From Ectocarpus siliculosus (lineage: Eukaryota; Sar; Phaeophyceae; Ectocarpales; Ectocarpaceae): 20,321 nucleotides of DNA. A program made the translations under genes and the position numbers. The notes under the pieces were generated by a model that was not told the DNA's origin, did no database searches, and saw only the letters and a list, made by a program, of their open reading frames with translations. The stretch lies in NCBI GenBank assembly GCA_000310025.1, contig FN648410.1:1469-21789 (forward strand), written 5' to 3'. Positions within the stretch are counted from its first letter, which is position 1. Every line of letters begins with the position of its first letter. Below, one piece after another: positions 1 to 19,726 of this stretch.

Positions 1-429
1 GGCGCGCGCCATAACTGCCGTGTAGGTCTCCGCCCCGGCAAGGGGCGGCAGCCGAGTGGCCACCTCACCCAAACGGAGGACCAACTCCTCCACAGTGCCC
101 TGATCGCAACCGAGCCGGTTGCGGTCGAACACCCGCCCAAGGTCCAGCGTTGCCCCGGCTCCCGGCACCAGCGCCGTGTAGCACGGCAGAGCGTAGGCCG
201 CCGTGGTCGCGTCCACAAACGCGGCCGTCTGGCGGTCGGGCCGGGGAGGCAGCCCAGGTGGAGGCGGGGAAAGCGGTCCCATCGGCGCGCTGGCAGCCGC
301 TGGGGCCGCGGCAGCCGCCGCCGGGGCAGCAGCCGCTGAGGAAGAAGGCGCCGCCGCTGAGGAAGCCGTTGTAGGAGAAGCAGCCGCCGAAGCCGCCGCC
401 GTGGCGTGCCGCGTGTTGCGAGGCGGCAT
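1..429 (-). CDS. Crypton-like element ORF, N-terminal part (partial)
   Basis: The ATG lies at 429-427 on the minus strand and the frame stays open to the window edge (143 codons visible). The product starts MPPRNTR and continues into an alanine/serine/proline-rich low-complexity stretch (about residues 10-50), then a more ordinary region with the motifs DRQTAAFVDATTAAY and LGRVFDRNRLGCDQGTVEEL. It matches the N-terminus of the fuller copy at 11257. The recombinase core lies beyond the window. Nothing in the visible part is broken. The role of this N-terminal region is unknown; by position it would precede the DNA-binding and catalytic parts of the recombinase. Confidence 0.75.
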   Translation of the reverse strand, partial: MPPRNTRHATAAASAAASPTTASSAAAPSSSAAAAPAAAAAAPAAASAPMGPLSPPPPGLPPRPDRQTAAFVDATTAAYALPCYTALVPGAGATLDLGRVFDRNRLGCDQGTVEELVLRLGEVATRLPPLAGAETYTAVMARA

Positions 430-596
430 GTTACGACTCTCAAATATATCCCTTCTCCTCGATAGCTCCGTGCTGTATTTCGGGAGAGAAAAGGGGGACT
501 GAACTAGATGGGGTCATTTTCCAACATCCTTTCTGGAATATCTGACTCTTCTCGATTTCGTTCCGAAATCTAGATGCGTCTCAAATCCGAGATTAC
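1..596 (-). mobile_element. 5' part of a Crypton-like tyrosine-recombinase element, inverted copy (cut by window edge)
   Basis: Read on the minus strand, bases 596 down to 1 match 11092 to about 11690 on the plus strand almost base for base, including the untranslated leader and the start of ORF1. The match begins at gtaatctcgg (596 here, 11092 there). The sequences outside it differ: a GAAAAA-rich tract here, unrelated DNA there. That places the 5' end of the element within a base or two. The leader is 167 bp here and 165 bp in the other copy. Only the first ~600 bp are visible, so whether this copy is full length cannot be told. The high identity points to recent activity or gene conversion. 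Confidence 0.85.
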
Positions 597-2102: not shown

Positions 2103-3515
2103 TTCCTGACTACCAGTGGAGACGCAAAGTGTTTTATGCGCACGTACGAGTCGAAGAAAGGAAGGAAGGCAGACGGGCAAGCAGCCTGGCTTGCGCTGGA
2201 GAACAAGCATCAGAACAAGTCAACTCACAGGAGGCAACAACTCATGACAAGACTTGCCAACTTCCGAATGGAAGAAGGATCCGATCCGGACACCTTCTTC
2301 AGGCACATTGACCAGCTCGCCGAGCAGCTCGAGCTGGTAGGAGAGCATGTTTCGCGGCACAGAAAAATGGACACCATCATGAGGGGGGTGTCCAGAGAGT
2401 ACGAGTCCATCAAGTTCCACGTCATGAGCAATCCAGGTTTTACTCTGGAGCAGCTAAAACTCGCAATTCAGAACATGCACATGAACGGATATGCAACATC
2501 CGGGCGCAGAGGAAGGGGATCAGCTATGGCAGCTGGTCCAGCTAGACGTGACACGTCTAAGGTCATATGCTACTCGTGTGGTGAGCTTGGACACTACCAG
2601 AAAGACTGCACGAAGACGGGAGGATCGACCGACAACCTCGGTGGCGACACATCCACACCCCGTCAGAACGGCGACACGACCGGAAAGAAGAAATGGTGTT
2701 CTTTCCACAAAACACACACCCACGACACCTCGGAATGCAAAGCATCAGCGGCTAGGAAGGCCGCACCGAAGTCTTCTAGGAAACAGCACAGGCAGGGCAA
2801 GAGCAACTTCGCCAACGCAGCTGCTGAAGAAGATGAGTCATCAAGCGACAGCGTCTTAACGAAAGACATCGCTAGGGTGTTCAAGCACATCAGCTTGTCT
2901 CTTCAAGCTACTGAGAAGAAGGATTCTACGACATCGGATCAAGACAGCGATGGCATCCCAAAAGCCATGGGATTCTCGTTCACAGTCACGGAAGAGGAAG
3001 AAGGCCTCTCCACATCGGACCACAACACTGCCCGCTTGCCGATGATGGTGGACAGCGGAGCATCCGCTCACTACATCGACGACAAACTGGTTCCAGGGAT
3101 CAAGCCGATGATGACAGATTATCGTAGACTGGTCCCATCCCGTGTCATAACCACGGCAGGCCTGCACAAGCTGCGTGGAACAGCTACAGGCTACATACGG
3201 TGTGGCATCACCGACAGCCACGGCAAGATGCATGTGGCGCGTCTACCCATCACGATAGTTCCGGGGATCGGACGGAACTTTTTCTCATCCGGAGCTGCCC
3301 AGACGAAGGGAATAAAAACCATCATATCGGATGTTCCTAGACTGGAACGGGAAAACGTTCACTTTCCTCTGAGGCGAGATGGGTCGATCTTCAAGGTGGA
3401 TTTGAAGATTCTCCCCAAGATTTCATCAGCTCAGGCACAGTCGGCATTCCCTACTACCAACGAGGACACGGACAACTGGCACCGTCGTCTCGGACACCTG
3501 AACGAGAAAGCATGA
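2103..3515 (+). pseudogene. copia gag-protease segment (5'-truncated)
   Basis: The frame is open from 2013, but recognisable gag starts near 2103 with LTTSGDAKCF and AAWLALENKH, typical of UBN2/copia gag. The usual N-terminal part is absent and a minisatellite takes its place. A CCHC zinc knuckle (CYSCGELGHYQKDC) is at 2568-2609, which would bind the RNA genome. A second Cys/His-containing stretch and a Ser/Glu-rich linker follow. The aspartic protease motif VDSGAS has its catalytic Asp at 3051-3053, followed by an ALG-like flap region. The GAG-pre-integrase motif WHRRLGHL (about 3477-3500) supplies the integrase zinc-binding histidines. The frame ends at a TGA (3513-3515), apparently because one A was lost from an A-run just upstream; the protein continues one frame back from 3512. 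Confidence 0.88.
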
Positions 3516-4553
3516 AGACGCTGCGCTCCAAGCCTGACTCGGGTGTTTTGTTCCAAGGAGATATTTCCACTTGCAACGTTTGCAAGCTTGGGAAAAGTGC
3601 TCAGCTCAAGCATTCAAAGGAATTAACGGTCACGACAACCACTCCGTTCGAGTTGGTCTACACGGATTTGGCTGGACCGTTCAAGCCTCAAGCGAAGGAC
3701 GGGTCCAACTATTTCAGCAAGTTCACGGATCATCACACCAGATGGAAAGCGGTTTACCCGATATCTTCCAAGGATCAAGCTATCGACACCCTGACATATT
3801 TCATTCAGGATTACGTCATCCCCCTGGGGCTACGGGTGCAGCGTCTACGCTGCGACAAGGCGGAGAATACGTGGCTGAGTACTACAGGAGCTACTGCAGG
3901 GAAACCGGAATAAACATGGAGTTTGCATCGACAAATACTCCTCAGCAGAATGGTGTATCGGAACGTGACGGAAGGACGATAATGAACATGACAAGGTGCA
4001 TCCTCATCGACACTGGACTTCCGAAGTTCCTGTGGGGTGAAATAGGCGAAAAACGTCGGTCTTCCTTATTATTCGCTCTCATCATCGTGCACTTGGCGGA
4101 AGCTCGCCATACTCCAAGCTATTTGGGAAAGGACCAGATCTTTCGGGTTTGAGGGGTATTGGAGCAAGGGCCTTCGTGCACAACGAGAGACACGGCAACA
4201 AGCTAGAACAGAGGGCTTGGGAAGGCATCATGCTGGGGTACAGCAAGGACAGCAAGTCCTATCGAGTCTACAATCCACACAACCACCGGATTACGGAAAG
4301 CCGGAATGTCACGTTCATTGAGACGCCGCCAACGGCAATACCGGAAGCTGGACAAGACAAGATCCTGTCCAATCAAGACGAAGACGAAGATGCAGATGAC
4401 AACGGCGCTTATGAAGCGTATCGTTGGGACATTCTTGCGCATTTACCCCTCCTCGGCACAACCAGGGAGGAACCCAACAACGAGGGGGACCAAAAGTTGG
4501 AAACGAGCACCTATTCGGAGGGTTCACCACGTCCACTCACGACAACCGGTTCA
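3512..4553 (+). pseudogene. copia integrase segment (frameshifted)
   Basis: This segment continues pol. CNVCKLGK (cysteines at 3572 and 3581) completes the HHCC zinc site. The DDE residues are visible: Asp in YTDLAGPF (3664-3666), Asp in RCDK (3853-3855) and Glu in NGVSER (3961-3963). The frame changes near 3858 (AAGGC where AAGGGC is expected) and again between about 4040 and 4075. After that SPYSKLFG...GIGARAFVHN and the copia 'WEGIMLGYS...YRVYNP' C-terminal segment are read in the original frame. Each change equals loss of one base. The frame then runs into the transposon insertion at 4553/4554 and stops inside it at 4679. The acidic, Thr/Pro-rich region after about 4330 is the normal integrase-RT linker. 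Confidence 0.85.
4543..4553. repeat. Target-site duplication, left copy
   Basis: CAACCGGTTCA is repeated exactly at 16298-16308. It lies at the outer edge of the left terminal inverted repeat. Codon TCA at 4551-4553 is in the same pol frame as TCA at 16306-16308. Part of the 11 bases may be chance identity; a true duplication of 8-12 bp is compatible. Confidence 0.85.
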
Positions 4554-4596
4554 ATCATATACACTATCGTTATTCGTGCCCATGGGTACCCATGGG
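4554..4596 (+). repeat. Left terminal inverted repeat of the DNA transposon
   Basis: Bases 4570-4596 (TTATTCGTGCCCATGGG... ending in a second CCATGGG) are the perfect reverse complement of 16254-16280. The outer bases 4554-4569 match the reverse complement of 16281-16297 imperfectly (shared TAYACAYTATCS pattern, one-base length difference). The inner part is one ATGGGTACCC repeat. Confidence 0.85.
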
Positions 4597-5241
4597 CACA
4601 CACGGCCACCAACGGCCCACGGAGGACCGTAATGGCCTTCAACTCCACGGGGATGGATCACAACGGGTACCAAGATTAAGCGTACTCTATAACATCGATT
4701 AGGCGGGGTCGACGAAGGCGCGGCCGCAGCGAGGTGGTACACCCAAGGTTCCGTGGGAGGCTCACAGCACAGCAGTTGGTGAGTCCAGCATTATTCCAGC
4801 TCGGCGCAAGAATGTGAAGAAAGAAAGGATACAACTGAACTGGCTTGGTGTGGGCGTGGAGGAAAGCGCGTCAGTGTGGCCTCACCCAGATCCACGGCGC
4901 TAGGCTCACCCAGGTCCACGGCGCGACGCTGAGGGCGTAGTCGCATCTCCCGTGTTTCGTACAGTGCACGCGCACGCCGAGGCCTTGGGCACGTCTCTTC
5001 ATCATACTGACTTGTTTCAGATTTAAACGGTACGGTGGGTTTAGTTGTTTTCAAAGCTCCAAGACATGTCGTCTTTCCTTCGTCAGGACGAATAGGTCCC
5101 TTGGTGATCATCCCTAATTCCCGTCGGCACCCGTAGGGTGCTACACCACCGATACCAACGGATCGCTACCCACGGTTATCACCAACGGGTGCCTGTGGCT
5201 ACCCACGGTGACGACCATGGGCTAGCGTTAGGCATCAGTTT
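4597..5241. other. Subterminal non-coding DNA of the transposon
   Basis: No coding signal. A tandem pair of a 24-bp unit (CTCACCCAGRTCCACGGCGC at 4881-4900 and 4905-4924) is present. Degenerate relatives of the ATGGGTACCC word occur between about 5120 and 5220 (for example ctacccacggt, caacgggtgcc), grading into the dense array that follows. Confidence 0.5.
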
Positions 5242-5570
5242 GGGTGCCCATGGGTCACCATGTGTGTGGCCATGAGTCACCATGGGCACCCATAGGCATT
5301 GCCCGTGGTAACCCATGGGTACCCATGGGCATTGTCTGTGGGAACCCATGGGTACCCATGGGCATTGCCTGTGAGAACCCATGGGTACCCATGAGTACAC
5401 ATGGGTACCTGGGTGCCCATGGGTAACCATGGGTATACCCATGGGTTCCCATGGGTACCCATGGGCATTGTCTGTTGGAACCCATGGGTACCTATGGGCA
5501 TTGTCTGTGGGAACCCATGGGTACCCATGGGTACCCATGGGCATTGCCTATGGTGCACGTGGGTACCCAC
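5242..5570. repeat. ATGGGTACCC subterminal satellite array (33-bp and 10-bp periods)
   Basis: Two nested periods are visible. A 33-bp unit, ACCCATGGGTACCCATGGGC plus ATTGYCTGTGGGA, gives GCATTG at 5296, 5329, 5362, 5465 and 5498. A 10-bp step (ATGGGTACCC) accounts for extra spacing, such as the 43 bp to the next GCATTG at 5541. The word is close to palindromic, so both strands encode open frames of the MGTHGYPWVP type; these are artefacts of the repeat. The same word forms the transposon termini, so the array may hold transposase-binding sites. Confidence 0.9.
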
Positions 5571-6668
5571 CGTGTAATTTCACTTGGTTATGGGCCAATG
5601 TATCAAACATCTGCACCGAGACACAGAAATAAACGGAGAACCCCGACGCAATGAAGAGGGCCGCGGGGCGGGAAAGCTTCGGGTATGGTTTGAAACCCTT
5701 TTGTCACCTGAACGGGCACGCACGAATGCGTGTATACTACCTCGGGGAGAGATAAAGTAAGGAACAGAACGTCAATTGGCAATGCGGGTTCGCTTCGGCG
5801 ACGTTATGAAACCCGGTATGTATGTCGTGACCATCTCGTGTCCACGTGGTTGAAACCCCCTTACGTTTCTTGGGGCGGGGTCGCTTCTGCCACGACCTGA
5901 ATCCCTTACCCCTTGCTGTATATGCCCCATATTCGGCACTATTTGGCTCGGTCCTGAAGAACCACGAAGGAAATACTAACATACGTAATGACGCCACAAA
6001 AAGACGATGTTGGGAAAAATATATGAAGCCAAACACAGCACCATAGAAAATCCACGCTCGACACCTTCACGACGAACTCCGCGTGGGACATTGTAAATTA
6101 TCGTCGTTACGCTGTGTACGACGCAACAAGGAAAAAAGATGTCGTCGGAACCAAGATATTGACAAGAAGTCGGAACCACGATGTTGACATACACACGGCA
6201 CATATCGTCCCGAGAACAGACAACACTCCCGCCAGGAAGGAAACCCATACCGGGAAACGTTGGCAATTTTCAATGTCAACCGTGCAATGGGACAAAAAAA
6301 ACAACGACAACAACGTCAACCCATTCTAGTAAACCCACTCTAGGAAGAAACGTCGCCGATCAAAGTGACATGACGCAGCTAGATAAGAGGAAGCAACCTA
6401 AACGGCTCGAATGTACGTAAAGCAGCCCCATTAGGTAGCGCGAATGGTGTAACCATAACCAAGTGCATCCTTCAGCCCATCACTCCAGGACATCTGTGCG
6501 GGTGGGATTCCTCTCTGCTAGGTAGAGAGCACCAGGGAACTCAGATCGGTAGGAATGTTGGCCCGCTCTCGACACACCGTAGGAGGACGAAAAAGATGGC
6601 AGCGGGAGCTGTACGGTTCCTGACGTCTACAACCTGCCGTTCCGGATGTATGTGTTGTACGTGCTTCA
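5571..6668. other. Non-coding DNA 3' of the transposase gene
   Basis: No convincing coding frame. A tandem 25-bp pair starts GTCGGAACC at 6144 and 6169. Four weakly similar 'tgaaaccc' words recur between 5689 and 5910. The region would hold the transposase 3' untranslated region and terminator; no clear polyadenylation signal was identified. Confidence 0.45.
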
Positions 6669-9600
6669 CTAACGGTCAAAGGTCGGGTGCTGGGACAACA
6701 GCTTTTTGGTGAGCAGGAGCTCGTTCTTGAAGCAGATGTTGTTGTCCAAGACGAAACGGTTCAGCACCTTTGGCATGCGCATGAGGACATGTCGAAACCC
6801 TGGTCAACAAGAGAGGCATGCGTTTCAGAACAGGTGTGGGTAGTTAACGTAGTTGGAGGTACTTAGCCTTAATGGATGAAACAACATGGACTACGAGTGA
6901 GACAGCGAGGAAAAGACATCAACGGGGGTCTGTAATGACGGTGTTAACCAGAAACTGGTATTGGTTCGACGCAGGGTGTATCTGACGCACGGCTTAGCCA
7001 CCCGTTGTTGGACTCGGCGATGGAGGAGTTCCAGCAGAACTCGGGCGGGTCTTGCTGCAAGTTCCACAGAAGAGGGTTGTTGTGGTCGTTTGGGTTGTTG
7101 AGGATAGAGCACGCAAGCTCCGTATGGCCCCGATAATGGAACCTGCCGGCGTCCATAGTAACGATATGCGCACAACGCGGGTATTGGGTACGGCCGGGGT
7201 ATGTGGTACTGAATTCCAAGTTGGAGTTCGGACACACTGTACACGTCACCCCTAACGCTACGCCAACTACAACTTAGAACGCCCAACCTGCTGCTGTGAG
7301 TAACTCACTATCAGGGAGCACGCCCTACTTTAGGCCGAGGTGTACGTAGTCTCTCGTTGAATTGCCCCGGGTGCTTTGGAAACACCGGCCCACGTGTCAC
7401 GTACCGGTCGACGATCAGCATCGTTCCAACCCAGGACAGATCCCCTCGGCCGCTCAGGTAGCGGTCCAGAACGCAGGCCTTGTCGTAAAAGGGGATGGTC
7501 GGGCGTCGATCCTCATCGGGAAAAATATGTTTCAGGGCCGCGTCCACATCGGCACATCCTTCCGCCTCCAAGAGGGGCACTATCCCGCAGATGATTCCGC
7601 AAGACCAGCTCGCGGAAAGACTCCCCCAGCTGATCTTCCTTTCTAGAACTGCACGGAGCATCCTCATGTCCTCAGGCTATGTTGTCGGCACACACACGCA
7701 CGCAGTGACAAGGGAGCAAGGGGTTTGTAATGGTGCCGATCAATGTGGCTTAAGTCCGGCTGCTCCCATGCGCGCCAGATTCGTTATGATACACTCGATA
7801 CCGCCACGTTCAAAATAGGTTAAACCCGAAGCCTGCGGTATCAGTGGGCTTCAATCGCAGGCCCTCCTACAGTGTATTCTTGGAGTACATGGTGATGTAC
7901 ATCCTCAACTGATGTTGGTGTGTGGAGCTTCTGTCTCAAGTCCATGCGGTGTGAGAAAAATCGTTCGCGTCGTCTGCCGGGCGCGTTCCGTCCTCGGCTG
8001 AGAACCCATGTCGGAGGGACCATCCCGGCCGGAACGCGCCTATTGTCCTGTAGCTATGGTTGGGTTAGGAGTAGAGTTAGGGGTAAAATAGCTTGCGCTG
8101 TTCAAGGAAAAACGTTGAGGTGGGTATTTTTCACCCGTGAAGCAGAGGGGCAGTCGATGCAAAAACCACGGCGCTTGTGCGAGACTTTTTAGATTGGAAC
8201 GTGCGCACATCACGTTGCTGAAGAAAAACCGGCACCCCTATCGGAGCGGTTTTCCAAAAAAAAACTGCCAAAAATAAAGAACGCAAGGGGAAAGGAGTAA
8301 CAGTTGTTGGGGTTCTGTAAAACGGGCCAGATGAAAGAGGAGGAGCCAAGCAGCTCTGTACCTTCGAAGAAGTCCAAAGACTTTTACTCAGACTCACGAC
8401 GAAACACGTACTTGATAGGTAGTTGATAAGCCCTCCCGAACCCTCTGGTGATGTAAAGACGATATCATGTCGGTAACCAATCACAGAGTATGCCACCGCC
8501 GCAATTGTTGTTTATGCAGAAACCCGACATCAAAAACCCTTCGTCGTAGGTTGCTGTTTCGTCCTAAAGGGGGGTGGGCGTAGCATGCGTTGATTCTACG
8601 ACACCTCCTGGTCCAAGAAGCGCGCTCGCTGTGCAGCAGTCCACGTAGCCTCCCGGTTCCTTCTGTAGAACTCGTCCTCCTGTGCCTTGTGTGCTGTGCA
8701 CGTTAGCCTGCTGTCCTCGCGATTGTTTCCGCAGGGTGGTTGTGCGACCCAGAACGCGCATGTGTGCCCGTGTACAGCAGCGTGGTCCTCGCAGTATCTG
8801 CCATTCAAAGATCACAAAAGATCACGAAAAGACCTCGGCGTATCTTGATTATTGTTGCCTTCCTACGATACGCAGTTTGTGTTGGTTGCCGTTTGACTGG
8901 TCTCGCAGTGTATGGAAGACGTAGCTGGTTACGTTATGCATGCTGTTGGTGAGCCTCTGTGTCACGAAAACCTAAGCCATCGATCTAGCGTTGTACAAGC
9001 GGCACGCCTTACTATCCCAGAAAGCTAATCGACGGCGCAGCTGCCATCGTTTTTCCTCATACCGATACGTCGATTAACGCGTCTCTCAGCAAGCGTGATG
9101 AACTTGGGCATGACGCTACCATTCAGGTAGCTTTAGCGACACGTATTGAACGTTGGTTGTGGTGATGATGCACGAATACGTGCAGCCTAGCGGCAAGGGC
9201 TTGGGACAGGGCTTCGGACGAGGGTTAGCTACTAGGGAATCGTGCTCAACCGTGTCTTCGCTCGACACTAAGTTGCAACGTACGTCTGCGTGGAGTGAAG
9301 CCCTTCAATTTCACGGTCACTCTTGAAAGAGCACGGGCTTGTGAAGGCGCGGGACGTTTGAAGGAGAGGGTGGTGTCGAGTTATATTTTGTGGGATCAAC
9401 AGGCGTTACAAACGACGTTGAAGGTTGGTCTGTGCGTGAGCTGGGCAAACAAAAACATTCCGGGAACCATGCGACAACAAAGGAGTGTGTGTACGGGGAC
9501 GTTCAAGTAACACTTAGCGCCCCCACCCACGGCGCCTCGAAAGGCAGGTCCATGTGAAACACACGGCAGCGCCAACTAACGGCGATAACATCGAAATGCG

Positions 9601-11091
9601 CCTAACAAAGTCCCGGCAATACGCATCATTTAAGAATAATACCATCTACCCGCCGCTGTGCAACGTCCTTGGCAGTGTTTGGAGCGGACAAACCCAAACC
9701 GACGAGCGGAAGGTATGGATAGCGGCGACGAAGTATGAGACTGTTTTGCGACACCAGAATAAAACGAGCCAAGAGTAAGGCATTCTCCGCCGAAAAAAAC
9801 ACTTGCAGACCTTGAAGTATCGCGTGGACGTATGCCGTCTATCGCGGCCGCCTGCGTCCAGAAGTCCTGTCCCTCTATGGGAGTGTATTTCCGGCACTGA
9901 TCACAAGCGTGATCTACCCACGGGGAGTCCCTCCAGTACCTGTCGTTGAGCTCCTCCTCGACACGACGTAGCCCCGCCCAACTATTGCATCCTGACTGCT
10001 CACCTCTCTCATCAAACACATCGACAGCCTTGGGATCCCTTGGCTTGAGTGCCTGGGCCGGCAATGCGTACCACTTGTGTGGACCTTGCACGCAATCATA
10101 ACGGAGAAAGTTTGAGTAACGGCAAGCAAGACTAAGAACTTGAGTCAGTTGCCAGAACGATAGCTGAAGGCGACTCGCCATCGGTTGTCGGTTCTGTGTG
10201 AATAACCCTCCGTGCTGTAGAGGAGGCGCGGTCGTTCGTGTAACCGCTAAGGCTTGTCAAACATCTCCCACCCCCGGTAGGTGTCCCACCCCTTGCGTAA
10301 TGACAGAGGAAAGACAAGAAGAAACAAACGATTGACTACTGCCAAATAAAAGGCTCGCACGCATGTCCCCTGCTCGGCGCTCCCTTATCCTTCCTACGAG
10401 AAGTTACTGTTAACCTGTACGCGGTCGGATTGGGGATTGGGTGCTAAATTTTGTTCGCCTTCGATGGAAAATGTATTCCAATGCGGGGAGAGGTCTGCTG
10501 TGTTGTCACAACAGAATACAACATGTTGCAGTGAGGGGACAACGCAACTTTCTTACCGACATCATTTGCGGCCTTAAGCACGGCGTATATCTCCCAGCAC
10601 TGCAGGAGCTCTGAACCCAGGAGGCGCAACTCCCGGCCGCCGCCGACGTCCGCGGCGGCGGTGTTGGAGTGCAGTTCAGCGTAGGAGTTGAAGCCCCCCC
10701 TGTCAGATATGTAACGTAGCAGCGATGTGTGCCACAGTAACCCACAGAGGGATGCTGGATCCTCTCCTCAGGAGTACCCTAGGCGACGAAATTTACCAGG
10801 GGCCGACATACGACAGAGAATCGGTAGAGTGGCTAACCAAGCTGAAGCCATCGACTGCGGTTGCGAGTACTTGGTCGGCGTGTACGTCCGCCCCTTCTTT
10901 TAACAAGTTCCACGACAACATGCACGGCGTCAGGATGATGTCGATTTCCGCGGACTTATGGTCCGCTAGCGCGCAAATCACATGTTCGCATGTTGCCGCC
11001 GAGTCACTTGGGTGTATTTCGGGCCAAGGATTTATTCGACTCGCCCATGGACGGAGTGGTGTGGCCGGCCACCGTTGAGGTGATGTCGTTC
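6669..11091 (-). CDS. KDZ-superfamily transposase, multi-exon, 5' end uncertain
   Basis: It probably moves the surrounding transposon. Exons on the minus strand: 10767-10557, 10084-9811, 8797-8605, about 7640-7405, 7142-6991 and 6799-6669 (stop TAG 6671-6669); 11091-10793 is an open frame that probably belongs at the 5' end. Motifs in order are an N-terminal SLLRYISDRGGF region, WVDHACDQC (9911-9892), RYCEDH with further Cys/His (8797-8605), CGIICGI and FYDKACVL (about 7475-7490), VDRFHYRGH (joined across an intron), NSSIAESNNGWL and FVLDNN near the C-terminus. The FYDKAC, VDRFHxxGH and NSSxAE order is typical of the KDZ catalytic region. Splice phases agree at four junctions. The segment between 8604 and about 7640 and the 5' part are unresolved and may contain further exons or a frameshift, so intactness is unproven. 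Confidence 0.75.
6800..6990 (-). other. Intron in the transposase gene (last)
   Basis: Donor is C|GTGCGT at 6990; acceptor is GTTGACCAG|GG with the next exon starting at 6799. Length is 191 bp, with a pyrimidine-rich stretch before the acceptor. Joining gives GWLSRFRHV, which bridges the NSSIAE motif to the FVLDNN segment without a stop. Confidence 0.75.
7143..7404 (-). other. Intron in the transposase gene (catalytic region)
   Basis: Donor is CCG|GTACGT at 7404; acceptor is CCGGCAG|G with the next exon starting at 7142. Length is 262 bp. The unspliced frame leaves the family pattern and reaches a stop at 7311. Splicing yields VDRFHYRGH, the expected KDZ motif, split exactly at the intron. 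Confidence 0.8.
8798..9810 (-). other. Putative intron in the transposase gene
   Basis: Donor is TCAAG|GTCTGC at 9810; acceptor is ATGGCAG|A at 8798, phase-compatible. Length is 1013 bp, much longer than the others, so an additional exon could hide inside. The joined frame reads DTSRYCEDH. Confidence 0.5.
10085..10556 (-). other. Putative intron in the transposase gene
   Basis: Donor is GTCG|GTAAGA at 10556 (close to consensus); acceptor is GTGCAAG|GT at 10085. Length is 472 bp, phase-compatible, giving ANDVGPHKWYALP. The unspliced upstream frame continues to a stop at 10444, so retention would truncate the protein. Confidence 0.6.
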
Positions 11092-13287
11092 GTAATCTCG
11101 GATTTGAGACGCATCTAGATTTCGGAACGAAATCGGGAAGAGTCAGATATTCCAGAAAGGATGTTGGAAAATGACCCCACCTAGTTTAGTCCCCCTTTTC
11201 TCTCCCGAAATACGCCGGAGCTATCGAGGAGAAGGGATATATTTGAGAGTCGTAACATGCCGCCTCGCAACACGCGGCGCTCCACGGCGGCGACTTCGGC
11301 GGCTGCTTCTTCTACAACGGCTTCCTCAGCGGCTGCGCCTGCTTCCTCAGAGGCTTCTGCCCCGGCGGCGGCTGCCGCGGCCCCAGCGGCTGCCAGCGCG
11401 CCGATGGGACCGCTTTCCCTGTCTCCACCTGGGCTGCCTCCCCGGCCCGACCGCCAGACGGCCGCGTTTGTGGACGCGACCACGGCAGCCTACGCTCTGC
11501 CGTGCTACACGGCGCTGGTGCCGGGAGCAGGGGCAACGCTAGACCTTGGACGGGTGTTCGACCGCAACCGGCTCGGTTGCGATCAGGGCACTGTGGAGGA
11601 GCTGGTCCTCCGTTTGGGTGAGGTGGCCACTCGGCTGCCACCCCTTCCCGGGGTGGAGACCTACACGGCAGTTTTGGCGCGCGCCAGGAAGGTGGCCACT
11701 TCGCGGGCGGGCGACAAGTCAGTTGCCTATCGCCAGGCCGAGGCGAAGAAGCTCCTGGCCGAGTACACTGTGGAACTCGCGCTCCGCCATGGCCGCCTCC
11801 TGCAGTCAGAAGGCTGTGTTCGTCGTGCCAGACGGAAAACGTGGGACATTACAACTATTGTTGATCCTGCGGTGTTCAGCCTGCCCGCGGGCGTCCGGTA
11901 CCGCGTGACCCTCAAGCGGCTCGGGTGTCGATCGATTTCGACGCGCTGCGCGCTCGTGGTGATCAGGTCCTCTCGGCCGCGTCTAACCGTCGTCCTCGAC
12001 AGTGCAAGTGCGCCGTAGCGGACGGGTTCGACGCTTTCATACTTTCGGCGACTGAACAACGTCGGGGTTGGAAGCAGGCGTCGGACCGAGACGTGTTTGA
12101 CTATCTCTGCTTCTTGGAAACACAAGGTAGTGGTACCAAGCGGGTGCACGACAGGGCATGCCCTGGTGTCGGCACGACGCACGGCCGCGATTGTCTTCCA
12201 AACACGCCATGTGCTAAGCGGTATGCCGCCGCGTCCATGCAGAAAGGGATCGTGTCCAAGCTGAAGATGGCGATGCAAGAACAGTTGGGAAAAGACAGCA
12301 GCTGGGACCCTGCCACGCGCTCGGGCAACCCCTGTTGTAGTCCTCTCGTCGACTCCTACCTCGTCTTCACGGGGGAGGAAAAAAAACGTGTGGGTGTCGC
12401 TGTCAACCAGGCAGAGGCTATGTTACCGCACGTCCTCATCGATCTGTTGAGGGACATGCGCTCTCGCGCGCAGACTGCGTCCTCTTTGGCGGAACGTATT
12501 GAGCTCACCAGGGACGTCGCTTTGTTTTCGCTGGCGTTCGCCTCCATGCGGCGAGGCCATGATCTCTCCTTCACTATGGGATCGCAAGTTCTGCGGTTGC
12601 CCGCGGGGCAGGGTCTTCTGATTTTCAACTTCCAGTTTGGCAAGACCCTCCGGGACTCTGTTGATGCCGTGGTCGTGCATCCGGACGTCGCTTGCCCGTC
12701 TATTTGTGCGGTGAGCAATTTTACGGCCTACATCAGTGCGGCGGAGCGTATTGGCTGGGATTTGTCCCAAGGGCATCTATTTCCTATCGTTCTGCTGGAT
12801 GGAACTCGGGGCTGCGCTCCGCTTACGGCGGTTCAGATGACGGCTGCCCTACAAGGGCATTTCCGAGCGGCGGGACTGCCGCACCGCTACACTATGCACT
12901 CGTTCCGCGTCGGGGGTTCTGTAGCGCAATCGCTTGACGGAACGGCGATGGTCGCCATCATGAAAATTGCCGGGTGGCGCACGGAGAGTGTAGCGAAGCG
13001 ATATGTTGGCGCCACTACTAGTGTGGGGGAACCGGGTTCCAAGAGGACCCGTAGCGAGCTGTACGCAGACTCAAACGCGTTGCCGTTGTCGGCTGACTTC
13101 ACATGCCATTTCTCTGCGTGTGCTCGCCGCGAAAAATAAGAAAGTTTGGGTGGGCGAGACCTAGCTTAGAGGCGTGAGTGGTCAAGAACTAACATGTGAC
13201 AGATCGGAAAATTAACAAGAAAGTAATGGGCGGGACCACAGACCGGCGCAGGAGGCCTCACCCAACCAAATCCAATACTTACATCGA
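11092..13287 (+). mobile_element. Crypton-like tyrosine-recombinase element (3' end approximate)
   Basis: The left boundary at 11092 comes from comparison with the inverted copy ending at 596. The only coding content is one long tyrosine-recombinase frame (11257-13139) preceded by a 165-bp leader. No reverse transcriptase or other gene is present, as in Cryptons and unlike DIRS or Ngaro elements. The right end must lie between the stop codon (13139) and the start of the FNIP-like reading frame (about 13288). It cannot be fixed, because the other copy is cut before its 3' end. A GTAATS word at 11092 recurs at 13223 and might be a short terminal repeat. Confidence 0.75.
11257..13139 (+). CDS. 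Crypton-like tyrosine recombinase (one -1 frameshift)
   Basis: The first part (11257 to about 11925) starts MPPRNTR, has an Ala/Ser/Pro-rich stretch (residues 10-50) and a helical-looking region. The second part continues one frame back from 11925. The change coincides with GGG at 11923-11925 and fits loss of one G; the second frame has no ATG there. Numbering from 11925, the recombinase signature is Arg209/Arg210 in MRRGHDLS, Lys240 in FQFGKTLRD, His325 and Arg328 in MHSFRVGG, Trp351 in GWRTES and Tyr360 in KRYVG. This is the full R-K-H-R-W-Y set of tyrosine recombinases. The enzyme would cut and rejoin DNA through the tyrosine to excise and integrate the element. Cys-rich segments (CKC; DCLPNTPC) precede the catalytic domain. 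Programmed frameshifting is possible but no evidence supports it over a simple deletion. Confidence 0.82.
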
Positions 13288-14285
13288 ATGATCTGGGTAA
13301 GGGATAAGAATATAACAGGATCCGGCTACGAGAGCCGCTTCAACCAGCCACTCGAAAGTATCAGTATGCCTCCTAATTTGAAGCAACTTCGCTAGAAAGC
13401 ACATTCAACAGGTCCATCGAAGGTGTGACTTTCGTAGATTCCATCGAGGACATTCGTCTAGGAGGATGCTTCAACCAGCCAATCGCCGCAGTCCGGTGGC
13501 CCAGTAGCTTGCAACGTTTGGCGTTTGGTACGTGCTTTGACCAGCCGTTGACCGGCTATCATTGGCCGGATGCATTGATCGCTCTGACGGCCGGTGATGC
13601 GTTCCAGCAGAACCTGCTAGGCGTTATCTGGCCTGATTCGCTGCAGTATCTCACCTTGGGGGGTGCGTGGAACGGGGGGCTGAGGCCTCCTGTGGTACTC
13701 CCTGCCACGCCCAAGGTCCTACGGTTGGGGGGGAGTTTCAACAGCCCAATACAAGGCATGCAGTTGCCTGACGGGCTGTAGGAGGTGTCGTTTCCCTTAA
13801 AATTTCACCAGGAGGTTGATGCCGTTCATTGGCCCAGGAACTTGCATAGGTTGTGTTCCCGGATGATTTCGACGACATGGTTTCCGTCGAACGCGCTAAG
13901 TGGCCGTCCACGCTAGAAGCTTTCGAGTTTGGGTCAGGCTGCGGGTGGCGTGTAAGCGACACCTCCTGGCCTACGAGCCTAAAGACGTTGGTGCTTGAGG
14001 GCAAGTTCAACACGAAGGTTTACACCTTGCAGTGGCCGCCTGGATTGGAGTCGCTTGCCTTCGGGGTTTCATTCAATCACTCTCGAGTCATGTTGGGCTC
14101 CTACCCTGAAGGAGTTGTCGTTTGGCAAACGCTTCCAACAACCACTGTCAGGCGTACGTTGGCCGAGAGCTATAGTCGAACTGAGGTTTGACGGGATGTC
14201 TACAGGTGACGGTTTTACGTGTGGTTACATGTGGCCAAGGTCGCTGAAGAGGGTTCAGTTTAGAGATGCATATTTGACTCGTTGA
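13288..14285 (+). pseudogene. FNIP-type leucine-rich repeat protein, WP variant, decayed
   Basis: About 14 tandem repeats of ~23 residues follow the pattern FNQPLxxVxWPxSLxxLxFGxx, as in CFNQPIAAVRWPSSLQRLAFG near 13470-13530. This resembles FNIP repeats (a leucine-rich repeat variant) with Trp-Pro in place of the usual Leu-Pro. The first ATG in frame is 13288, but the repeat array seems already underway there, so the N-terminus is probably missing. Single-base losses are inferred near 13392-13400 and 13845, one gain near 14090, and an in-frame TAG at 13779-13781. The last repeats are more diverged and the frame stops at 14283-14285. There is no signal peptide, membrane segment or partner domain. 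The function is unknown; such repeats generally serve protein-protein contacts. It may be cargo of the transposon or the site into which the Crypton inserted. Confidence 0.75.
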
Positions 14286-16231
14286 AAGGATAAACACTTG
14301 AAGCGCGCAGTAATATGCGGGGAAATGCCTGGTGGTGACCAGCTCCATACTTCGTGATGAACGATCGTGGTTTTGTAGACCAGGGCATTCGAGCTCGCTC
14401 TGGCACGGTGGGGTGAAGAGGTTTACGAATGGCGCCCCGTGCATGTTCCGACGCGGGGTATTCCCTGGTTTTCTTTGTGGGACTTCAGTCGTTCGTGTTG
14501 TGCCACGTTTGTTTCTCCCAGTTGTTTGGCGTTTTCAATCGAAGTGTATGGAACGACTTATTACCATCATCGGGTCCTCATGGGTTTTTCTCTCTCGCAG
14601 TTGTTTAGTGTTTTCAATCGAAGTATGGCACGACTTACTACCCTCAGCGGGTCCTCCAATGTTATTCTCTGCCACAATGGAAGCGACATCCTTGCGGCTG
14701 CCTGCTTAATTTTCAGTGGTCGTTACCTGTTGCCATGTTCTAGTATACCGTGTATCGGCAAGAGCGTCCGCGGGTGTGTTTTCGGTGAGAGGCTTCAAGG
14801 TGACGACAACCGCGTACGTACATGACCATTTTTTTACGGCCTTCCCAGGTTTCTATTGGTGGCGTCCAACTTGGTATGGCGACAGTACTCTCATTTTCGT
14901 CGTGAGACGTATACGACACTTTTCATTGTACGCAGAGTAATAAAATGTACACTTTCAGTATCCTTTTTCCGTACAACTACAACCATCCAAGGCTACACAG
15001 GAGGGGTGTGTGGACAAGAAATCCAATCCTTGTCGGCAGCTCCTGCGTACGGCAACGAACAGCACGTATTACAAGTAATTTAGCTTTCGATGTCCCTTGT
15101 AAGTACCAAAGCACGTGGTTCAGCCTTGTAGCCGGTCACGAGGAAAACTTGACCCACAGCTTCACGCACGAGGTGTTGCGACACGTCATTCCATGTAGGT
15201 ACACTGTTCGTGGTTGCCAACCTCCGTGAGAGGTTGTGCCAGCGGACTCCCACCTCTTCTTGCACGAGGACGACGACAAGAGTGCCCAGGACAACAAAAG
15301 CAATCTTTGGGAAGATGTGGCGAATAGAACCCTCCGTTGACAAGGCCCCTCACGCATAAATATTTTCTACCACGAGCATTACCATATTTTTTGCTCGTTT
15401 TATCCAAAGAACACACCACACTTATTCCATTCGCCGTACACTGCGACACAACCCCGAACAATCACACACATGATCTACGTTATTACCAAAGTTGGGTGTA
15501 CACGCTCAGCCTAGTTGAACTGCTGCGCAGCGTATCACCGTGCCCGCCGCAAAGTCTAAAAGGCCAACGGTGCGGTCCATGGACTCTGCGGTGACGCTTG
15601 GGGCGGCAGCAGCAATGGAATCAGCATGATGTACAAGTTGTGGCCATGAACAAAAGCGAAGAGTCGAGTTATTCGCTGTTGGTACGTACACCAAGGCTGT
15701 AAACTGCGACCGGGGCGGCAACTCACTGGCGCTAACCCTCACGCGCCCCCGATACCCTTTCGCTGGGGGGGACGCGACCCCGACCATAATGCCATCTGAC
15801 TAGAGTAGCGTTTCCGGCTACCTGCCCTTGGTAGCTGATGACCTTCCGCTTGAAATACGTGCTCTGGGATCTTTACACTTCGTATATACGCATTTCCTCC
15901 GTCAGTCAGACTATGCCTTCATATGTTGCTAGGTGATGGATCATCGCCTTTCTTTGTCATGGGTGGTAAGCATAGCGCGCGTATGCATCCAGTTCACGCG
16001 AGGTTGAACGGTAAGGACAAGCGCCGCAGGTGAATGGCTTACGAGTACCAGCCATGCGCAGTGTTGCATCGCGTTACCCGCTGTGTGCCCCCGAGAAAGA
16101 GAGTGGCTTCCGAGAGGAGGAAAATGCCGGGTGCCGAACCCAAAGTGTCCACAACGAGGAGTACGTATGCATACATCTAACAGAGAGAGTTTTGCAATTT
16201 CCAACGTCGTTCCCATAGTCTAGGTACCCAC
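14286..16231. other. Right-hand interior of the transposon, no clear gene
   Basis: Short ORFs occur on both strands. The only one with any compositional appeal is on the minus strand, 15787-15506 (93 codons, starting MVGVASPPAKGYRGRV), which matches nothing I recognise. It lies on the same strand as, and upstream of, the transposase, so it could be a detached 5' exon. A 79-bp tandem duplication is listed separately. Otherwise nothing is seen. Confidence 0.4.
14519..14656. repeat. 79-bp tandem duplication
   Basis: CAGTTGTTTRGYGTTTTCAA starts at 14519 and again at 14598. Similarity continues through gaagt(gt)atgg and cgactta...cgggtcctc, with a 2-bp deletion and scattered substitutions in the second unit. 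Confidence 0.75.
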
Positions 16232-16253
16232 GCCATATGGGTACCCATGGGTA

Positions 16254-16297
16254 CCCATGGGTACCCATGGGCACGAATAAGGATAATGTACATCACC
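16254..16297 (-). repeat. Right terminal inverted repeat of the DNA transposon
   Basis: This is the reverse complement of the left end: perfect over 16254-16280 against 4570-4596, imperfect outward to 16297. Just inside it, from 16232, two to three more ATGGGTACCC units lie in tandem; the left end has only one before diverging. Confidence 0.85.
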
Positions 16298-16308
16298 CAA
16301 CCGGTTCA
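16298..16308. repeat. Target-site duplication, right copy
   Basis: Exact second copy of CAACCGGTTCA. The copia linker resumes directly after it (GGGGTCACGTTTGATCC) in the same frame as the left half. Confidence 0.85.
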
Positions 16309-18266
16309 GGGGTCACGTTTGATCCGCCGTCAACACCGGATTCTGTGGGCACACCGAGTAGCCGAACGTCATTTGACCAGGGGGAGGGCTCGACGGAGCG
16401 ACAAGATCCCTCAAGTTCTTCATTGCTTCCTGATACCTCGCCAGGCAGGGCAACATCACTACGGTCGCAGAGACCTGTCACATCCTTGAGCAGGACATTA
16501 CGGTCCAAGGGACCAGCCCAAGACCCCCCGAGTGTGGACACTGCAGGGCTAGACGGAAAAACGAGACTCGAATTGAAACGACTGGCTACGTCGGCCACGT
16601 TCGAGAAATAAGACTATGCTCACGAGCCGGAACGTAGTTCACTCGTGGAGTATGCATACGTCACGGAAACAATCACCCAATCCAACCCGGATCCTGCCAG
16701 CATTACGCTGCCCAACACGTTCAAGGAAGTCAACGCGTCAGCACACAGAGCACAATGGTCCAAGGAAATGGACAAGGAAATGGCGAGCCTTCACGAGAAC
16801 AACGTCTACGACTTCATCCCAAGATCGGCGGTTCCGGTCGGAAACAAGGTCATCGGATCGCGGTGGGTGTTCAAGGTCAAGAGCGACTACACTTTCAAGG
16901 CAAGAATTGTCTGTCAAGGATATGCTCAGCGACCTGGAATCGATTGCGGGGCAACCTTTGCACCGGTTTGCCGCATCGAGAGTCAACGGATACTAATGGC
17001 CATCGCCTGCCATTTTGACTGGGATATTTTGATGCTGGACGTCAAGACGGCGTTCCTTGAAGGCCCTATCGACTCACCGACATACGTGCGACAAGCTCCT
17101 GGATACGAGAAGCTTGACGCTCAAGGAAAACCCTTCATCATGAAGTTAAAGCAAGCTGTTTATGGACTGCGGACAGCAAGCCGCGTTTGGCATCTCACAT
17201 TGGACAAGACTCTTATGGCGATGGGATTCAGGGCTACAAAGACGGACCCGTGCATGTACATCACAGAAATTGGGGGAGGATACTGTCTATTAACTATTTA
17301 GGTTGATGACATTCTCCTGACATCGTCGGACAAGAAGGTACTCGTCAAGAAGAAGAAGAAGCTTATGGACCGCTTTACCATGAGCGATCTCGGAGAGGTG
17401 TCCCTCATCCTGGGGATGAAGATCACACGCGATCGAGTAAAGAAGACCCTCCGGATCAGCCAAACGGACTACACCACTTCACTACTGGAACGATTTGGGA
17501 TGCAAGACTGCAACCCAGTTAGCACGCCAAGCGTCGGAGGAGAGCTATTGCTGGATCAGCCAGCGGAGACTCTACTCGACGAAGACGGCATCAAGACGTA
17601 CCAAAGCTTAGTCGGAAGCCTTTTGTATTTGAGCCGGACCAGCCTCTGGGACATATCATACGCCGTGCTTGAATTGACACGGGCTACCAGCAAACCCAGC
17701 AAGGCGCACATGTCCAGAGCTAAGCATGTACTCCGGTACCTCAAACAACGGCCAGAGTTGGACATCGTGTTCAAGAGCGGCGATTTCAAGGTCCAAGCTT
17801 GGGCAGACGCAAGCTTTGCTCAAGACCTTGAGAAGAGGAGGTCAACAAGTGGATACCTTTTTCTACTGTGCGGCGGTCCATTTCATGGGCCTCATCACTT
17901 CAATCGCTGACTGCACTCAGCACAACGGAGGCGGAGATGGTTTCAATCTCCTATGCAGCACGAGAATGCTGCCACATTCAAGACATGTTGGCGGAACTCG
18001 GATTCCTCAATCAGTTCAGCAACATTCGGATCGGAAATGATTCGACGGGCGCTCTATCGCTAGTGAGTAACAACTCCTACAGCGCCAGGACGAAGCACCT
18101 TCAGCTGCGGAAGTGGTTCACAACGGAGCTCATCGAAAGCGGACGTTTGAGCGTATACCACGTCCCGTCGGGAGCTCTACCTGCCGACCTCTTCACGAAG
18201 AGCACTACGAAGGCCATCCACCGAAAGCTCGTCGACCAGATTCTGGCTTATTCAACGAAGGAGTGA
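16309..18266 (+). pseudogene. copia reverse transcriptase / RNase H segment
   Basis: The Ser/Pro/Thr-rich linker runs to an in-frame TAA at 16609-16611. The frame then continues unchanged into reverse transcriptase: AQWSKEMDKEMASL, NKVIGSRWVFKVK, the catalytic Asp in LDVKTAFLEG, and KLKQAVYGLRTASR. The YVDD catalytic box reads stop-VDD (TAG at 17299-17301), consistent with a Tyr codon mutated to stop. Thumb and connection follow in the same frame (GEVSLILGMKI, SLVGSLLYLSRT). RNase H begins with WADASFAQD and STSGYLFLLCG. One base is lost near 17870, after which TALSTTEAEM, IGNDSTGALSL, RTKHLQLRKWF and ADLFTKS complete the domain, ending at TGA 18264-18266. Both stops and the frameshift prevent a functional polyprotein. 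Confidence 0.88.
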
Positions 18267-19415: not shown

Positions 19416-19606
19416 GTGCAACTACAATACTTGATGTGCATACGTGGCACAAGCTCGAGAGCATGGTGTTGAAGTCATCTTTCCAGAAAGGTGTTGTAGC
19501 TTACCAGTACCGTATTCTGAACACGTGTGATTGGTCGACGTTGTCCGATAGGTGTGATTCCATGATTTTGAGGATGAGCGCGTACGTACTCGCCCCGTCC
19601 TCTCAC

Positions 19607-19726
19607 TCTGCTTCTCTAGGGGTTCTCCAACCCTCTGTTTCTCTGGGGGTTCTCCAGCCCTCTGCTTCTTTGGGGTTTCTCAACCTCTCTACTTCTCCGG
19701 GGTTCACTACCCGTCTGTTTCTCTAC
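19607..19726. repeat. 27-bp minisatellite in the LTR
   Basis: TCTGCTTCTCTAGGGGTTCT plus CCAACCC is repeated four times (27, 27, 27 and 26 bp) with a partial fifth unit starting TCTGTTTCTCTAC. The strand is pyrimidine-rich. Confidence 0.85.

Follow-up and report, generated by a model that had tools for sequence, protein, structure and literature searches.

Locus organization and boundaries of the element

The analyzed DNA (the window) is a 20,321-nucleotide stretch of Ectocarpus siliculosus contig FN648410.1 (C60:1469-21789). It contains a copia element whose pol region is interrupted by a long DNA transposon with inverted termini (Table 1). Inside the transposon lie five minus-strand pieces of transposase exons, a nested remnant carrying a tyrosine recombinase, and a fragment of an open reading frame (ORF) with FNIP repeats. 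The evidence described below makes it very probable that the element belongs to a family of giant Kyakuja-Dileera-Zisupton (KDZ) DNA transposons of an Ectocarpus-like brown alga.

Table 1 Features of the window, in order of position.
Feature	Position	Strand	Basis
Host copia element, left part (start approximate), frames already broken	2200–4543	+	ORF list and related copies
Left target-site duplication AACCGGTT	4544–4551	.	Sister copies and empty sites
Giant DNA transposon, very probably KDZ-type, 11,747 bp	4552–16298	.	Ends common to sister copies; empty sites
Left terminal inverted repeat	4552–4610	+	Inverted-repeat arm and sister copies
Subterminal array of palindromic CCCATGGGTACC units, differing between copies	5241–5569	.	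Repeat listing and copy comparison
Predicted last exon (K3) of the KDZ transposase, ending in a stop codon	6669–6799	-	Borders read by eye
Predicted KDZ transposase exon K2 (FHYRGHTELAC...NNGWLS)	6991–7141	-	K1/K2 junction matches predicted protein P0038
Predicted KDZ transposase exon K1 (YDKAC...LIVDR), followed by GTACGT donor; 5' start not fixed	7405–7673	-	Relatives and copy comparison
Transposase exon piece with CxC6-like cluster	8603–8799	-	Pfam CxC6 in window piece and relatives
Piece of a transposase exon bearing the cysteine cluster DHACDQC	9840–10169	-	Open in 6 of 8 gap-free copies, window included
Nested DIRS-type remnant (probable) holding tyrosine recombinase	11093–13317	+	Absent in three sister copies
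FNIP-repeat ORF fragment (cargo)	13377–13781	+	Pfam FNIP 5.6e-16
Right terminal inverted repeat	16240–16298	-	Inverted-repeat arm and sister copies
Right target-site duplication AACCGGTT	16299–16306	.	Sister copies and empty sites
Host copia element, right part (RVT_2)	16307–18266	+	ORFs, Pfam, related copies

The 11-mer CAACCGGTTCA is found exactly at 4543–4553 and 16298–16308. A previous interpretation of this DNA, made from the letters alone (the sequence-only reading), had taken all 11 bases as the target duplication and had delimited the transposon as 4543–16308. The 11-mer by itself is weak evidence, as at least two matches were obtained in 11 of 100 shuffled sequences when one mismatch was permitted. 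The boundaries are instead fixed by other copies, which place the element at 4552–16298 and set the target-site duplication (TSD) to the 8 bp of AACCGGTT. The remaining three bases match by coincidence: the first C of CAACCGGTTCA belongs to the flank on the left side and is the last base of the element on the right side, while the final CA represents the first two bases of the element on the left side and flanking sequence on the right side. In agreement with the sequence-only reading, inverted repeats are present at the ends, and the arms at 4544–4610 and 16240–16306 (TSD bases included) are 82% complementary. The excised length of 11,755 bp that it gave is also correct (11,747 + 8 bp). The palindromic array near the left end could be a set of putative transposase binding sites.

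Empty sites in related copia copies

The genome (189 Mb, 492 contigs) was searched with the left copia flank (4200–4551), and 19 matches were obtained including the window itself. In 13 of the 18 other copies (L038-L050), the sequences flanking the element align directly adjoining each other with approximately 94–98% identity. A single AACCGGTT is present at 11 of these sites, and the other two (L041 and L048) carry a one-base variant. These 13 uninterrupted copies, which were sought by the alignment that the sequence-only reading had proposed as a check, are true empty sites, and they confirm that a DNA transposon is inserted in copia pol. Among the other matches, L051 is a more distant copia copy that is partially aligned and differs by one base at the site; L052-L055 align to part of the left flank only.

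The copia reading frames agree across the joint, as had been stated earlier together with the claim that excision would rejoin pol in frame. This copia, however, has pol spread over several frames to the left of the element and contains stops to the right, so excision would not restore an intact gene. Further to the right of copia, approximately four copies of a 26–27-bp direct repeat occupy 19606–19724.

Sister copies and their target-site duplications

Genome searches with the two ends revealed a family of related elements. The left 158 bp gave at least 59 matches (40 of 67 candidates scored). Those reaching the end mostly start at query position 8–11 (window 4550–4553), and many others start at 34–37, within the terminal repeat. 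The right 231 bp gave at least 124 matches (40 of 100 candidates scored), many of which represent the internal CCATGGGTACC repeat, and many matches end at query position 219 (window 16298).

Twelve sister copies were fetched for comparison with the window copy. Their lengths range from 7.6 to 12.1 kb (measurable in 11 of the 12), and both ends are kept in 12 of the 13 copies, the exception being E68, which is without the left end. A perfect 8-bp TSD flanks 10 of the 12 two-ended copies (window counted), with E16 and E33b as exceptions; the TSD of E233 is perfect with the right boundary moved by one base. Eight further end pairs were picked by distance on the same contig. Perfect 8-bp TSDs are present in four of them (C268, C241, C42, and C33a) and absent in three (C24b, C2, and C73), and the left end of C25 is degraded. 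The members of the C2 and C73 pairs are ~26 kb apart and may not belong to single elements. In total, the search for elements sharing both ends, another check that had been suggested, yielded 19 pairs in which both ends could be read (window included), and 14 of these have perfect 8-bp TSDs that are all different. No 8-bp match was found in 342 cross-pairings of left and right flanks, and no strong target motif was seen among the 14 TSDs.

The window is close to the beginning of contig C60, and two copia halves might have been joined around an unrelated repeat by misassembly. This explanation has almost no probability, since 13 other pairs have the same ends, each pair flanked by its own TSD, and in 13 copia copies the left flank continues directly into the right one.

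Two loci considered as miniature relatives were set aside: that at C24:389 kb has no clear 8-bp TSD, and that at C23:2911 kb is an inverted duplication that takes in its own flanks. The latter locus (L087, C23:2911830-2912060) consists of two facing left KDZ ends with flanks inverted on both sides, forming a near-perfect palindrome, and may result from an aborted transposition or be an artefact of assembly.

Transposase pieces and probable assignment to the KDZ superfamily

The five transposase pieces were recognized by eye, and K1, K2, and K3 are bordered by GT..AG-like signals. A genome search with K1 and K2 gave at least 149 matches (150 of 158 candidates scored). Distant loci hold K1 and K2 in the same order with roughly 38–53% identity, and further distant loci contain K1 alone with 34–36% identity. 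The joined K1-K2-K3 model of the window is 46% identical to one of the relatives, L067, over 183 aligned positions. Three such proteins were used for a profile search, which retrieved 22 database proteins; where a source is named, it is Pylaiella littoralis or one of several Ectocarpus species. The spliced C-terminal model shares 82% identity over 180 residues with the Ectocarpus sp. 6 predicted protein P0038, which spans both the K1/K2 and K2/K3 joins, and 53% identity over 182 positions with P0040.

In the first search of the protein database with the joined exon pieces, the single match was in the CxC6 part. The window piece at 8603–8799 matches Pfam CxC6 with an E value of 0.02, below the cut-off, and the corresponding piece of L090 matches above the cut-off (9.5e-7). 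Of 16 genome matches to CxC6 at E values up to 10, four exceed the cut-off (C21, C424, C30, and C296), and each of these four has a K1 relative 0.7–0.8 kb downstream on its own strand; on C424, CxC6 and the K1 relative are both read within one locus (L090). The other piece with a cysteine cluster (9840–10169) gave no Pfam match alone.

The assignment to KDZ, a superfamily that the sequence-only reading had missed, is based on the relatives, the CxC6 cluster, and the 8-bp TSDs, and is accompanied by terminal inverted repeats as in Zisupton. TSDs of 8 bp are described in the relevant passages of the literature for Zisupton and a Dileera lineage, and of 7 bp for Kyakuja (PMC12730594). Correcting the TSD from 11 to 8 bp brings it to the length expected of Zisupton and Dileera.

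Several results weigh against this assignment. The KDZ domain itself was detected through relatives only, namely P0040, which matches Pfam KDZ (PF18758) at 1.4e-4 with 22.1 bits (curated cut-off 26.6), and L067 (0.023, also below the curated cut-off). The Pfam KDZ model did not match the window's own pieces, P0038, P0039, or the L090 frame, and a six-frame genome search with it found nothing, its controls being equally silent. Among the 16 genome matches to CxC6, 12 do not reach the cut-off, and the 8-bp TSD is missing in five of the 19 readable end pairs. The transposase of the window copy is read as exon pieces and may not be whole. Lastly, no codon-position bias was seen at variable sites among the 13 copies over the stretches displayed, a test that says little because the copies evolve neutrally after insertion.

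The main competing assignment is another superfamily with terminal inverted repeats that makes 8–9-bp duplications, such as hAT or MULE; the KDZ-like exons would then be cargo. TSDs of 8 bp by themselves cannot separate hAT from KDZ, and the sub-threshold Pfam scores of the window pieces also leave room for this explanation. On the other hand, a scan of nine ORFs of the element detected no transposase domain of another kind, and the KDZ and CxC6 similarities are ordered on one strand in the relatives. We therefore consider a hAT or MULE origin improbable.

Probable movement of defective copies in trans

Three sister copies (E3b, E24a, and E7) have in common a deletion of 8573–10160 and a stop codon within K2, and they are flanked by three different target duplications. 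The common transposase defects at different insertion sites suggest that this subfamily moved after partial loss of the transposase with the help of another copy, and the defective members were thus probably mobilized in trans. In the proposed mechanism, a KDZ transposase, from this copy or another, would bind the inverted termini, move the element, and integrate it at an 8-bp staggered cut within copia pol. Such a cut would produce AACCGGTT on both sides of the element.

Nested remnant, probably DIRS-type

The sequence at 11093–13317 is missing from E68, E233, and E33b, and the join is clean with one base ambiguous. Given its clean absence in the three copies, this part is interpreted as having inserted into an element that was already present. 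The 2.2-kb insert contains an open tyrosine-recombinase frame of 424 amino acids. There are 36 database homologues of the recombinase at E values up to 0.001 (7999 candidates scored), one of which is named from Laminaria digitata. Precomputed labels are ALOG (PF04852) on 10 of the 36 and phage integrase (PF00589) on three. When P0002, the closest homologue (96% identical), was rescanned, no ALOG was detected and Phage_integrase was below the cut-off (0.054); for P0024, ALOG was at 0.012, also below the cut-off.

Outside the family, the two ends of the insert are found as pairs at two loci, spaced 8.1 kb on C5 and 9.5 kb on C33; 40 of 162 candidates were scored in one search and 40 of 216 in the other. 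The clean joins of the insert-free copies led us to consider a Crypton. This reading was set aside on account of these wider end pairs and of the literature on ALOG-DIRS elements, in which the part describing the ALOG-domain DIRS1-type retroposon of Ectocarpus gives a length of little over 9 kb with reverse transcriptase-RNase H (PMC3537659). The insert shares the tyrosine recombinase and the host group with that retroposon as described there (PMC3537659), and differs in being 2.2 kb long and essentially recombinase only, with little room for reverse transcriptase-RNase H. The insert may be an internally deleted form of such an ALOG-DIRS retroposon. Outside the transposon, window positions 1–596 hold an incomplete, inverted copy of the remnant, 94–98% complementary to 11092–11685, that runs off the left edge.

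The open recombinase frame of the insert raises the question of whether the whole element was moved by its own tyrosine recombinase, as a Crypton- or Starship-like cargo element. By definition, Cryptons have the recombinase in their mobile copies and no random TSD, and varied 8-bp TSDs with terminal inverted repeats do not suit a tyrosine recombinase. The recombinase is absent with a clean join in the three insert-free copies, the 8-bp TSDs of the family are varied, and E233 is without the insert yet has a perfect TSD. The insert ends also occur at the two loci outside the family. Movement of the element by its recombinase is thus extremely unlikely, and the insert would be a passenger of the KDZ element.

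FNIP-repeat cargo

The FNIP fragment is separated by the nested insert from its 5' part near 10692–11092, and in E68 the FNIP frame is uninterrupted (287 amino acids). What the sequence-only reading had called cargo consists largely of these two components, the retroelement remnant and the FNIP-repeat gene piece. A genome search with the FNIP piece gave at least 233 matches (150 of 865 candidates scored). Among those listed, 40 have at least 79% identity and are taken as the element family, and the next ones have at most 57% identity, many of them within long open frames elsewhere in the genome. These frames of lower identity suggest that the FNIP part is a host-type gene, either captured or shared, which may travel as a passenger. 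Three loci with 90–95% identity to the FNIP piece (C145:54881, C33:476745, and C376:7329) have frames open for 523, 421, and 366 amino acids, respectively, longer than that of the window. It is conceivable, though rather unlikely, that the family is a working gene carrier that captured a host FNIP gene and retained it as useful to the element or the host. In that case, giant KDZ elements would be a brown-algal counterpart of Pack-MULEs.

Comparison with known KDZ elements

Eight KDZ families that make up 1.8% of the genome were reported for Ectocarpus sp. 7 strain Ec32, where, according to the sections on giant elements, these are generally longer than 10 kb and KDZ elements reach 30.3 kb (PMC12477816). 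The same sections describe nested unrelated transposable elements fixed among copies, accessory genes, and frequent pseudogenization of the transposases, implying mobilization in trans (PMC12477816). The window element corresponds closely to this published account as far as those sections go, the comparison being with the description of the eight families. Its own family shares with Ec32 giant KDZ elements (e.g., KDZ-1_Ec32) the probable superfamily, a size over 10 kb, and a high copy number, in addition to fixed nested elements, accessory genes, and a transposase that is often pseudogenized and probably supplied in trans (PMC12477816). Its size with cargo, previously judged unusual for a cut-and-paste element, is typical of giant KDZ elements in a brown alga by the same account (PMC12477816). 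As a difference, FNIP and Crypton do not appear in the main text of PMC12477816. No FNIP-carrying KDZ element was apparent in the titles and abstract openings of the papers listed on FNIP, transposons, and brown algae, on Crypton and Ectocarpus, and on giant algal KDZ elements.

The element is thus ordinary for its host and a clean example of an already described class, nested insertions included. Within one genome, it displays the termini, the TSD, the empty sites, a deletion subfamily with apparent mobilization in trans, and the remnant of a retroelement nested inside, along with an FNIP-repeat gene piece traveling within a probable giant KDZ element. Features in common with Zisupton and Dileera (from fungi, and from fish for Zisupton) are the 8-bp TSDs and, for Zisupton, the terminal inverted repeats, as given in the corresponding passages of PMC12730594, and a predicted KDZ-type transposase with a CxC cluster. 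The TET/JBP domain, another point of difference from Zisupton and Dileera, was not found in the nine element ORFs scanned. The window element further differs from both in its host lineage and in its divergent transposase.

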